Shown here: piece after piece, positions 15,587 to 32,406 of the stretch | How the letters are laid out: each line of letters starts with the position of its first letter | Position numbering within the stretch: position 1 is the stretch's first letter | Assembly (NCBI RefSeq): GCF_019090095.1 | Contig: NZ_JAGQFP010000002.1 | Coordinates: 1,860,001-1,924,000 of the forward strand | Direction of reading: 5' to 3' | DNA from: Stutzerimonas stutzeri | GTDB lineage: Bacteria; Pseudomonadota; Gammaproteobacteria; Pseudomonadales; Pseudomonadaceae | DNA length: 64,000 nucleotides | The notes under the pieces: model-generated | Told to the model about the DNA's origin: nothing | What the model saw: only the letters and a program-made list of their open reading frames with translations | Databases searched by the model: none | Program-made: the position numbers and the translations under genes

Positions 15587-15657
15587 AGCCTGCGATTCGG
15601 CGAAGATCGCGACATCCTCCCGGGCGGTTTTTTTTCAGGCGGAGCGGCAGGGCGTAG
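15587..15657 (-). promoter_or_regulatory. MalT-type promoter of lamB
   Basis: Reading leftward: CTACGCC (15657-15651), 6 bases, CTCCGCC (15644-15638), 17 bases including a run of eight A, GGAGGATGT (15620-15612), 19 bases, then CAGGCT (15592-15587) as a weak -10. Four other promoters in the window have the same spacing. The -10 is poor, as expected for an activator-dependent promoter. Confidence 0.8.
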
Positions 15658-15659
15658 CG

Positions 15660-15669
15660 GGGGAGGAGG
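15660..15669 (+). promoter_or_regulatory. Perfect consensus MalT box between lamB and amylase promoters
   Basis: GGGGAGGAGG matches the E. coli MalT box GGGGA(T/G)GAGG at all ten positions. It lies just outside the lamB operator set and 26 bases before the amylase one, so it could be an extra site shared by the divergent pair. Confidence 0.6.
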
Positions 15670-15694
15670 TCGGGCGACGCGACGGCCGCGCGGA

Positions 15695-15765
15695 TTACGC
15701 CTGGCCACTAAGCCTCGAATAATCCGGTTGGGGAGGTATGGCCGGGCAGGCGTGCGGGGCAGGCT
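15695..15765 (+). promoter_or_regulatory. MalT-type promoter of the G4-amylase gene
   Basis: TTACGCC (15695-15701), 6 bases, CTAAGCC (15708-15714), 17 bases, GGAGGTATG (15732-15740), 19 bases, CAGGCT (15760-15765). The sites are weaker than at lamB but the spacing is identical. The amylase ATG is 104 bases downstream of the -10. Confidence 0.7.
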
Positions 15766-15868
15766 GTGGCGGTCGGTGATGGGGTTGTCACCGACTGCGC
15801 CCGGCCGTCCGGGAAGCCGGTGGCCGTTGTCGGGTGCTCACAACAACTACAAGAGTGGAGCTACTTCG

Positions 15869-30048: not shown

Positions 30049-30119
30049 GCATTGTTTGCTGCAACCTGTGTGCACCCGACCGCGTCGGTGGGTGCTTTCA
30101 CGCGTAGCGAGAGCCGAAG

Positions 30120-30668
30120 ATGACGATGACCGAGAAACAGAAGATGCTGGCCGGTGAGCTGTATCGCCCCGGCGACCCCGAGCTGCAGGCCGATCAGGCC
30201 ACCGCCAAGGCCTGGATGGTGCGCTACAACGCGGCCCTCGGCGAGACGCCGGCGGTGCGCCGGGCCTTACTCAAGGAGCTGCTGGGCAGTGTCGGCGACG
30301 GTGCGGTGGTGCGGCCGCCGTTTCATTGTGATTACGGCTACAACATCCACCTTGGCGACGAGGTGTTCTTCAACTTCAACTGCGTGATTCTGGACGTGGC
30401 CGAGGTGCGCATCGGTGCCGGCACGCAGATTGGCCCGGCGGTGCAGATCTATGCGGCGGATCATCCGCGCGGTGCCGAGGAGCGTCGCAGCGGTCTGGAA
30501 TTCGGCCGGCCGGTGATGATTGGCGAGCATGTCTGGATCGGGGGCGGCGCAATCATTCTGCCAGGCGTGACCATCGGCGATGGCGCCGTGATCGGTGCCG
30601 GCAGTGTGGTGACTCGAGACGTCGCGGCGGGCGCGACCGTGATGGGGAATCCGGCCCGCAGTCGCTGA
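30120..30668 (+). CDS. maa: Maltose O-acetyltransferase
   Basis: 182 residues from ATG 30120; the ATG at 30126 would give MTEKQKMLAGELY, closer to E. coli Maa, and is equally possible. The protein is a left-handed beta-helix of hexapeptide repeats (IGAGTQIGPAVQIYAADH, IGEHVWIGGGAIILPGVTIGDGAVIGAGSVVTRDV), with the conserved N-terminal GELYRPGDPELQADQA helix and the NFNCVILDV and Asp-His catalytic region (AADHPR). It uses acetyl-CoA to acetylate maltose, glucose or related sugars, thought to detoxify or allow efflux of excess sugar. It follows malT by 71 bases on the same strand, probably in the same transcript. Confidence 0.92.
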   Translation: MTMTEKQKMLAGELYRPGDPELQADQATAKAWMVRYNAALGETPAVRRALLKELLGSVGDGAVVRPPFHCDYGYNIHLGDEVFFNFNCVILDVAEVRIGAGTQIGPAVQIYAADHPRGAEERRSGLEFGRPVMIGEHVWIGGGAIILPGVTIGDGAVIGAGSVVTRDVAAGATVMGNPARSR

Positions 30669-30797
30669 ACGCGCCGAAGTGCGAGGCGACGTGCCAATGC
30701 CGCTGCGGTAGGCCAGTTGTCGTTGGCCCGGTGACCTTGGGATAGGCGACAACCTTGCCGGGAATGACAGCCGACCAGGGCCGGCTGTCGACCGCGC

Positions 30798-32078
30798 TTA
30801 TTGCTGGGTCACGATGGCCATGTTGCCCGAGCCCATTTGCGACACCATGGCGGCGTTGCCCATGCCGCTCTGGTCGAGGATCGCCTGGTTGGCGGTACCC
30901 CCTTGCAGCACTTGCGCCAGATGGCCTTCGCCGGTCTGGGAAAGGGCGACTTCGTTGTCCGCGCCATAGATCTGCTGGATATCGGCGACGTTGAGGTTGC
31001 CGTCCTGCATCACGTCCACCCGGTTGTTGTCGCCGTAGCTCGAGCCGGTCAATTCGTTACCATTGCCGGTCTGGCTGACGGTCAGCAGGTTGTCGGAGCC
31101 GTCCTGGGCGAAATCGATCAGGTGATCGGCGCCTTGCTGAGTGACATAGGCCTGGTTGTATTCGCCGGTCTGTTGAAGCGAGGCCGTCTGGAAGTTGCCA
31201 TCGAGCTGGTCGATGGTGAGGTAGTTGTTATTGCCGGTCTGCTCGGCCGTGGCGTTATTGCCATCGCCGGCCTGGAAAACATCGGTGCTGTTGGCCACGC
31301 CGTTCTGGTAAATCGCCGCGGTTTGCAACGAGCCGCTCTGGTCAACGTAGGCTTCGTTCATCGTCCCGGAAGACCGGATGCTGGCGGTGTGATCGGAACC
31401 TTGCTGCGTCACCGAGGCGACCTGCGAGTCGCCCTGCTGTTCGATCTCGGCGCGTGAGTCGAAGGCATTGGTCTGATAGACGCTCGCATCGTTGAAGTTG
31501 CCCTGCTGGTCGACGCTGGCGGTGTTGCGGGCGCCGCCGTCCTGCCAGACCAGCGAGACGTTCTCATCCCCCGTTTGGCGCTGTTCCGAGACGCTCGCCT
31601 CGGTGTTGCTCTGCACGCTTTCAGCGAAGTTGTCGTTGCCACTTTGCTCTGTCACCGCCGTGCTCATGTCCGCCGCGTTCTGCTCGGTGATCGAGACGTT
31701 GAACGTGCCGTCCTGGTATTGCCGGGCGCTGGCGCCGAAGGAGTCGTTCTGGACGATGCTGGCATCGTTGTTGTCGCCGTACTGCTCCTGGATCGCCTCG
31801 CTCTGGTCGGTCGAGGTCTGGCTGATCGCGGCAACGTTCAGGTTGCCGCCCTGGGTCTGCACCGCGTCGGACAGGGTTGCTTGCGTCTGGGTCACCTTGC
31901 CGTCGTTGCCGGCGCCGATCTGCGACTGATAGGACAGGTTGTCCCGCCCGCCGCTCTGGGTGGCTTCGGCGATATTGTCGGTACCGGACTGATTCTGTTC
32001 CGCGCGGTTATCGTCGGCGTAGGCCTGGGTCGCCAGGATCGCAATGATGGCGGCTGCGAGGGGCTTGCACTTGAACAT
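30798..32078 (-). CDS. Large secreted curlin-repeat (amyloid-like) protein
   Basis: 426 residues from ATG 32078 (GGAGAG upstream). Signal peptide 1-21 (ILATQAYA). The rest is about 18 consecutive repeats of roughly 22 residues with the curlin pattern N-x-A-x-x-x-Q-x-G (for example NNATAEQTGNNNYLTIDQ, NLNVAAISQTSTDQSEAIQE). It is rich in Q, N, G, S, T and D, with very few charges except D and E and no lysine after the N-terminus. CsgA and CsgB have five such units, so this is a several-fold longer relative. No csgG, csgE, csgF or second subunit gene is near, so export would need genes elsewhere. It lies between maa and the glucosidase, transcribed opposite to both. Expected to form extracellular fibres; biofilm role inferred. 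Confidence 0.82.
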   Translation of the reverse strand: MFKCKPLAAAIIAILATQAYADDNRAEQNQSGTDNIAEATQSGGRDNLSYQSQIGAGNDGKVTQTQATLSDAVQTQGGNLNVAAISQTSTDQSEAIQEQYGDNNDASIVQNDSFGASARQYQDGTFNVSITEQNAADMSTAVTEQSGNDNFAESVQSNTEASVSEQRQTGDENVSLVWQDGGARNTASVDQQGNFNDASVYQTNAFDSRAEIEQQGDSQVASVTQQGSDHTASIRSSGTMNEAYVDQSGSLQTAAIYQNGVANSTDVFQAGDGNNATAEQTGNNNYLTIDQLDGNFQTASLQQTGEYNQAYVTQQGADHLIDFAQDGSDNLLTVSQTGNGNELTGSSYGDNNRVDVMQDGNLNVADIQQIYGADNEVALSQTGEGHLAQVLQGGTANQAILDQSGMGNAAMVSQMGSGNMAIVTQQ

Positions 32079-32335
32079 GTCGTCTCTCCATGGGGGTAGG
32101 GGCGTGTCGTTCCTGACTGGCGCGGCTGCGTCTGGCTTTAGCCGGAGGCTGCAGCTACGACGGTGTCGGTCGCGGAACTACCCCGATCCTAGGAAGGCCT
32201 CGTGACAAAATAATGTCGAATCAGCGTTGTGTCGACGTTTTTATGGCGATGGGCGGCAGGCACGGCTGCCGGATTGCATGAGCGCTCGGACCGTGGGGGG
32301 AGGCGTGTGCACTACGCCCCCGGCAGGAGGTGGCT
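32079..32335. other. Divergent intergenic region, curlin-repeat and glucosidase genes
   Basis: 257 bases upstream of the leftward curlin-repeat gene and leading into the glucosidase promoter. A stretch at 32295-32330 is G/C rich with GGGGGGAGG and an extra CTACGCC (32312-32318) that might add MalT contacts. No other clear signal. Confidence 0.4.
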
Positions 32336-32406
32336 CTACGCCTGGTTCATACGCCTCGTTATTGCTGGCGGCGGAGGATGTTGCGGCGGGTTGCCGCACC
32401 TAGAGT
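32336..32406 (+). promoter_or_regulatory. MalT-type promoter of the glucosidase-malK operon
   Basis: CTACGCC (32336-32342), 6 bases, ATACGCC (32349-32355), 17 bases, GGAGGATGT (32373-32381), 19 bases, TAGAGT (32401-32406). The spacing is identical to the malE promoter. The start codon is 36 bases downstream of the -10. Confidence 0.8.

Follow-up and report, generated by a model that had tools for sequence, protein, structure and literature searches.

A MalT-type operator layout shared by five promoters of the Stutzerimonas stutzeri maltose cluster

Five promoters carry the same three boxes

The window studied here, a stretch of 64,000 nucleotides from Stutzerimonas stutzeri (contig NZ_JAGQFP010000002.1, positions 1,860,001 to 1,924,000, forward strand), contains a cluster of maltose and maltodextrin genes that includes malT, the gene of the presumed activator. 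Five promoters of the cluster, those of lamB, the maltotetraose-forming (G4) amylase gene, a chemoreceptor gene, malE and a GH13 glucosidase gene, carry three boxes followed by a -10-like hexamer in the arrangement CTACGCC-n6-CTACGCC-n17-GGAGGATGT-n19-nAnnnT. The spacings are 6/17/19 in 5/5, which confirms the three-site geometry described in the initial annotation of this DNA. Very probably all five are activator promoters of the malP type known from Escherichia coli, which depend on MalT. The assignment to MalT, proposed in the same annotation, is supported by the presence of malT in the cluster, the E. coli layout, the co-occurrence of operator and malT, conservation at orthologous promoters and a closely similar DNA-recognition region. 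The operator set is real and well conserved and almost certainly MalT's, an ordinary further example of a known control system. The five sites (distal boxes D1 and D2, then the proximal box) are:

15612-15657, minus strand: lamB promoter operator; D1 CTACGCC, D2 CTCCGCC, proximal GGAGGATGT; -10-like hexamer CAGGCT at 15587-15592
15695-15740, plus strand: G4-amylase promoter operator; TTACGCC, CTAAGCC, GGAGGTATG; -10-like hexamer CAGGCT at 15760-15765
17645-17690, plus strand: promoter operator of the chemoreceptor, a methyl-accepting chemotaxis protein (MCP); CTACGCC, CTCCTCC, GGAGGATGT; -10-like hexamer GATTCT at 17710-17715
23374-23419, plus strand: malE promoter operator; CTACGCC, CTACGCC, GGAGGATGT; -10-like hexamer GATTAT at 23439-23444
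32336-32381, plus strand: promoter operator of the GH13 glucosidase gene and probably malK; CTACGCC, ATACGCC, GGAGGATGT; -10-like hexamer TAGAGT at 32401-32406

The distal boxes form a direct-repeat pair with a 13-bp step in all five promoters and in that of an unlinked pullulanase gene (pulA). The proximal box has the opposite orientation, and its centre would lie at about -37.5 relative to the start predicted from the -10-like hexamer. This agrees with the position given for the GGAGGA core in the initial annotation, if the hexamer is set at -12 to -7. The mal promoters of E. coli depend on MalT, whose box core is GGAKGA; the proximal boxes fit this core as GGAGGA, with the exception of the amylase box, GGAGGT. 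The distal boxes are mostly GGCGTAG, a variant of the core that is also present in E. coli malE. In the amylase operator the boxes are degenerate and the register is kept. All window operators start about 110-180 bp upstream of the assigned start codons. An additional CTACGCC stands at about 32312-32318, 24 bp upstream of the glucosidase D1.

The pattern is rare and marks an unlinked pullulanase gene

Four matches to the strict consensus were found in the window at 3 or fewer mismatches, the amylase site being too degenerate to match. One hundred dinucleotide shuffles of the window gave a mean of 0.01 matches and a maximum of 1. A position weight matrix (PWM) scan with spacers of 5-7 and 15-18 found, at a score of at least 20, the five promoters and nothing else in the window; the matrix was made from the five sites and the pulA site, and the result thus shows uniqueness rather than independent discovery. 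A slightly relaxed layout, searched with up to 3 mismatches over all of the 4.9-Mb genome, had 7 matches: the four cluster promoters at 0-1 mismatch (the amylase site again unmatched), two sites at 2 mismatches and one at 3. Reading the pattern backwards gave 0 matches in the whole genome. The initial annotation had asked if the pattern is equally common upstream of unrelated genes, and it is not. Two genome matches, L005 and L007, both lie within coding frames and were rejected as operators.

One of the 2-mismatch sites (L006 1501-1546; genome C1:1700209-1700254) is not linked to the cluster, has the same layout as the cluster promoters, and lies about 67 bp upstream of a gene for a secreted pullulanase. 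The protein was identified by its PF17967 and PUD domains; TIGR02103 stayed below its cut-off over the 478 residues examined. By position, the predicted targets are thus maltose/maltodextrin genes (lamB, amylase, malEFG, glucosidase-malK and pullulanase), with the chemoreceptor as an addition. Sites with 2 mismatches that resemble the pullulanase operator (TTACGGC...TACGCC...AGGATG) recur in ten other genomes of the genus, among which the downstream gene was checked in one (G055).

Orthologous promoters keep the layout

The malE-centred loci in which conservation of the malE site was examined are the best 80 among 339 confirmed relatives. The matrix for this search left malE out, and the spacers were free to range over 3-9 and 10-25. 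The site was present in 64/80 loci, the best spacing being 6/17 in 55, 7/17 in 6, 7/18 in 2 and 6/18 in 1. In the flanks examined, malT was visible in 41/64 loci with the site and in 0/16 without it.

For the other promoters, orthologues were counted if they had at least 45% identity, half coverage, a match that began no later than residue 60 and 150 bp or more of DNA upstream; the rest were dropped before counting. At a score of at least 20 the site was found before lamB in 29/30 (6/17 in 18, 6/18 in 8), before the amylase gene in 26/26, before the glucosidase gene in 47/49 (6/17 in 21, 6/16 in 15, the rest mixed) and before the MCP gene in 8/12. In these orthologous promoters the layout is kept and the spacer sequence drifts. 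Amylase rows with a second gap of 13-15 proved, on reading the letters, to be mis-registers of the proximal box (GGGGGAGGT taken for GGAGGT) and some were re-scored; the corrected gap is 17, or 16 in L044. The MCP operator was present in the 7 Stutzerimonas loci tested and was not directly upstream of the MCP gene in the 5 Pseudomonas loci tested, which suggests that it was gained or lost at genus level. The MCP site counted in L043 is 387 bp away and resembles the amylase operators. A search of the malE region for a malS promoter of the MalT type, on the opposite strand, found sites of odd geometry in 3/27, and the idea was rejected. Several Marinobacter glucosidase promoters (L054, L055, L059, L063, L066-L070 and others) pair E. 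coli-like CTCATCC or CTCCTCC with CTACGCC and have a 16-bp second spacer.

Operators track MalT in Pseudomonadaceae

In 198 Pseudomonadaceae genomes MalT scored above its curated cut-off in 28. Operators with at most 1 mismatch occurred in 25/28 genomes with MalT versus 2/170 without it, and at up to 2 mismatches in 27/28 versus 19/170 (Fisher p 3e-26 and 7e-20, respectively, both inflated by shared ancestry). Three genomes with MalT were missed at the stricter setting: G026 and G155 have 2-mismatch matches, and G109 has none, its malE promoter showing the same layout with a 7-bp first spacer. All 198 genomes encode proteins that the MalT model matches at E<=0.001; as the operators track those above the cut-off, the operator follows true MalT and not its paralogues. 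A recurring site, CTCCGTCGATCC...GAGGATGT, in 13 of the 19 MalT-lacking genomes with a match at up to 2 mismatches looks like coding sequence and was rejected.

The two MalT-lacking genomes with an operator at the stricter setting are G055 and G178. G055 belongs to the same genus and has a decayed mal cluster (L129, L130) in which the malT, glucosidase and malK frames are fragmented. In this genome the acetyltransferase and curlin-repeat genes were matched over their full length, the glucosidase operator is one base off the proximal consensus, and the pullulanase-type site precedes a gene matched at residues 1-80 only, within the stretch examined.

Fixed and free parts of the operator

Operators were collected, at a score of at least 23, from the window, loci L006 and L129-L131 and the 80 malE-centred loci; not every site was assigned to a gene. 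The 179 sites collapsed to 88 when those with similar spacers were merged, and the 6/17 spacing was present in 132/179 sites and 57/88 non-redundant operators. The search itself accounts for part of the box conservation seen in this set; the -10 element lay outside the search matrix. The nAnnnT hexamer stood 19 bp past the proximal box in 82/88 operators, and no other spacing in the range 15-24 bp was seen in more than 5. Between the proximal box and the hexamer no position exceeded 0.31 bits. A conserved fourth box upstream was not found among the 88, the best offsets, 10 and 24 bp, accounting for 12/88 and 9/88 operators. The 88 candidate operators suggest which parts are fixed (the boxes, their phasing and the 19 bp to the -10 element) and which is free (the spacer sequence), and the collection should be useful for modelling the MalT oligomer on DNA. 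It also offers a simple rule for finding MalT regulons, one that here takes in the unlinked pullulanase gene and the chemoreceptor gene.

Written in the same reading direction, the boxes fall into two classes, distal GG(C)G(T)AG and proximal GGAGG(A/T)TG (GGAGGATG). The TG at proximal positions 7-8 carries 1.4-1.5 bits, versus 0.02-0.04 bits at distal position 8; the proximal position-8 figure was helped by the search matrix, which took in position 8 of the proximal box only. With a 17-bp spacer, the opening half of a -35 hexamer would coincide with this TG, and we infer an overlap between the proximal MalT box and a -35-like element.

Comparison with E. coli and Klebsiella promoters

E. coli K-12 promoters were compared directly; malP, malZ and malK were found by matrix scan at low scores, and malS was read from an anchored box. 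E. coli malP reads CTCATCC-n6-CTCCTCC-n17-GGATGAGGA-n19-CAAACT. Both malPp and malZp thus have two boxes 13 bp apart, 17 bp, an inverted proximal box, 19 bp and nAnnnT, the spacings of the window. In contrast to the window sites, the malP boxes are GGATGAG/GGAGGAG instead of GGCGTAG, its proximal GGATGAGGA lacks the ATG tail at the -35 position, and the proximal box of malZ is weak (TGATGAGTG). The malKp and malSp promoters share the distal pair with its 13-bp step, the box orientation, the 19 bp and the nAnnnT hexamer, but have 18 bp, not 17, between D2 and the proximal box. In malK, whose promoter is also assisted by CRP, several overlapping registers are possible. In E. coli malEp a GGCGTAG box, exactly CTACGCC read on the opposite strand, lies 13 bp from GGAGGATG, after which come 19 bp and GAAACT; the second box of this promoter is oriented like its proximal one, whereas the window malE has the malP layout. 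Judged by this layout, the promoter architecture is the E. coli one, a point on which the initial annotation needs correction, and the malP-type layout extends to Pseudomonas-type bacteria that make G4-amylase. E. coli MalT promoters and their consensus are touched on in parts of PMC10427625 and PMC8265627.

The source genome has a MalT-type promoter before a pullulanase gene, a likeness to Klebsiella, in which the pullulanase gene is under a MalT promoter. Klebsiella pulAp has four MalT sites according to a passage of PMC10427625. The operators collected here differ from this description, no conserved fourth site having been found.

Weighing of the MalT assignment

Several observations weigh against these sites being MalT operators, or against their uniformity. 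The matrix made from the window sites scored E. coli malP 14.1 and malZ 13.2, while a chance match elsewhere in these E. coli sequences reached 14.2, and the distal GGCGTAG differs from the E. coli core GGAKGA at two core positions. As the matrix fails to single out the E. coli sites, the box sequences have diverged, and the link to E. coli rests on the layout and the known MalT sites. The identical spacing claimed in the initial annotation held for the five window promoters and not across related species, as 31/88 non-redundant operators have a spacing other than 6/17; in nearly all of these one spacer or both differ by 1 bp, and a difference of 2 bp is rare. Sixteen of the 80 malE loci (Aeromonas, Neiella, Agarivorans, Burkholderiales and others) are without the site, the glucosidase promoter is without a good D1 in five Pseudomonas loci (L038-L040, L042, L043) and L033, and G055 retains two operator-like sites without an intact malT. 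In favour of the assignment, control upstreams had no site at a score of at least 20 (malF 0/77, malG 0/76, malT 0/39, malK 0/61, the acetyltransferase gene mac 0/19, curlin 0/6; 0/278 in total), which is a mild test since these upstreams are largely coding sequence.

The difference between the box classes, and the departure of CTACGCC from the E. coli core, would also fit MalT binding the proximal GGAGGATGT only, with a second regulator on the CTACGCC pair. The failure of the matrix to single out the E. coli sites makes this slightly likelier and the MalT reading slightly less sure. We consider it improbable, as E. coli malP, malZ, malK and malS have MalT-type box pairs at the same place and in the same orientation, Marinobacter glucosidase promoters mix CTCATCC/CTCCTCC with CTACGCC within one pair, and GGCGTAG is present in E. 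coli malE itself. It is still less probable that another MalT-like LuxR protein reads the operators: the source genome encodes two further TPR_MalT proteins above cut-off, yet the operators follow the genomes over the MalT cut-off and not the ubiquitous model matches. GGAGG resembles a ribosome-binding site and the genome is GC-rich, but Shine-Dalgarno-like sequence or compositional coincidence is very hard to reconcile with the distance of the boxes from the start codons, their fixed register with two heptamers and a -10 element, the gap between the shuffles and the four matches observed, and the conservation of the boxes while the spacers drift.

According to the favoured model of MalT-dependent activation, MalT, a maltotriose-responsive STAND activator, would bind three asymmetric boxes: the distal direct-repeat pair, 13 bp apart, with GGCGTAG on the strand opposite to transcription, and the proximal box, GGAGGATG, in reverse orientation at about -37.5. 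From the proximal box it would recruit RNA polymerase to the weak nAnnnT -10 element. Starch degradation (G4-amylase and the unlinked pullulanase), outer-membrane entry (lamB), import (malEFG, malK), the glucosidase and the chemoreceptor would thereby be switched on jointly, and the malE promoter would also drive malT in a positive feedback.

Position of malT and a predicted feedback

The malT ATG is at 27298 (or 27304), 59 nt past the malG stop, and simple consensus scans detected no promoter or terminator in this gap. In 35 loci malT follows malG on the same strand; the gap, measured to the MalT residue coded at 27334, is 67-328 bp in 34 of them and 1917 bp in one. In several Pseudomonas the gap is longer and could leave room for a promoter. 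No operator was found in 39 orthologue malT upstreams (0/39). As malT lies just behind malEFG, with neither a promoter or terminator detected in the gap nor an operator found before it, malT is probably transcribed from the malE promoter in this genome. If so, MalT would activate its own synthesis; no such positive malT feedback is known in E. coli. The window's MalT shares 37% identity with its E. coli counterpart over the whole protein, and the two are much more alike in the helix-turn-helix, where 'TTIKTHIR.LYQKL' is common to both.

Three features are possibly new: the division of the MalT boxes into a distal GGCGTAG class and a proximal GGAGGATG class whose TG occupies the -35 position, the MalT-type chemoreceptor promoter and malT behind malEFG. 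Tentatively, and with some doubt, we propose that the boxes read by MalT in Pseudomonadales and relatives differ in class by position: GGCGTAG at the distal places and, at the proximal place, GGAGG(A/T)TG, merged with a -35-like TG that stands 17 bp ahead of the -10 element. The promoter would thereby fix in its sequence the roles of the MalT subunits, some to hold the activator and one to touch RNA polymerase, within a self-activated malEFG-malT circuit that also commands a chemoreceptor. Among the matches listed from the open-licence literature no paper on a Pseudomonas or Stutzerimonas MalT operator appeared; an earlier description is possible, for example in the original amyP papers.

Genes of the cluster

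The cluster comprises lamB, the G4-amylase gene, the chemoreceptor gene, a MalS-like amylase gene, malE, malF, malG, malT, a maltose acetyltransferase-like gene, a curlin-repeat gene, the GH13 glucosidase gene and malK, which follows the glucosidase gene at 34169. The presumed activator and target genes are:

14187-15476, minus strand: lamB maltoporin, target gene (NF006860, 588 bits)
15869-17548, plus strand: G4-amylase with starch-binding domain, target gene (PF09081, PF00686)
17765-19795, plus strand: methyl-accepting chemotaxis protein, target gene (PF00015)
23514-27238, plus strand: malE, malF and malG transporter genes, target operon (NF007011, NF008232, NF008231, all above cut-off)
27298-30048, plus strand: malT, presumed activator (NF003420 equivalog, 1123 bits versus a cut-off of 537)
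32443-34062, plus strand: GH13 alpha-glucosidase-like gene, target (best NCBIfam match below cut-off, exact substrate not assigned)

None of the 6 upstreams tested for the curlin-repeat gene (PF07012, window 30798-32078) carried a MalT operator. The gene lies inside the maltose cluster, divergent from the glucosidase gene, and is found in 7/80 related loci.

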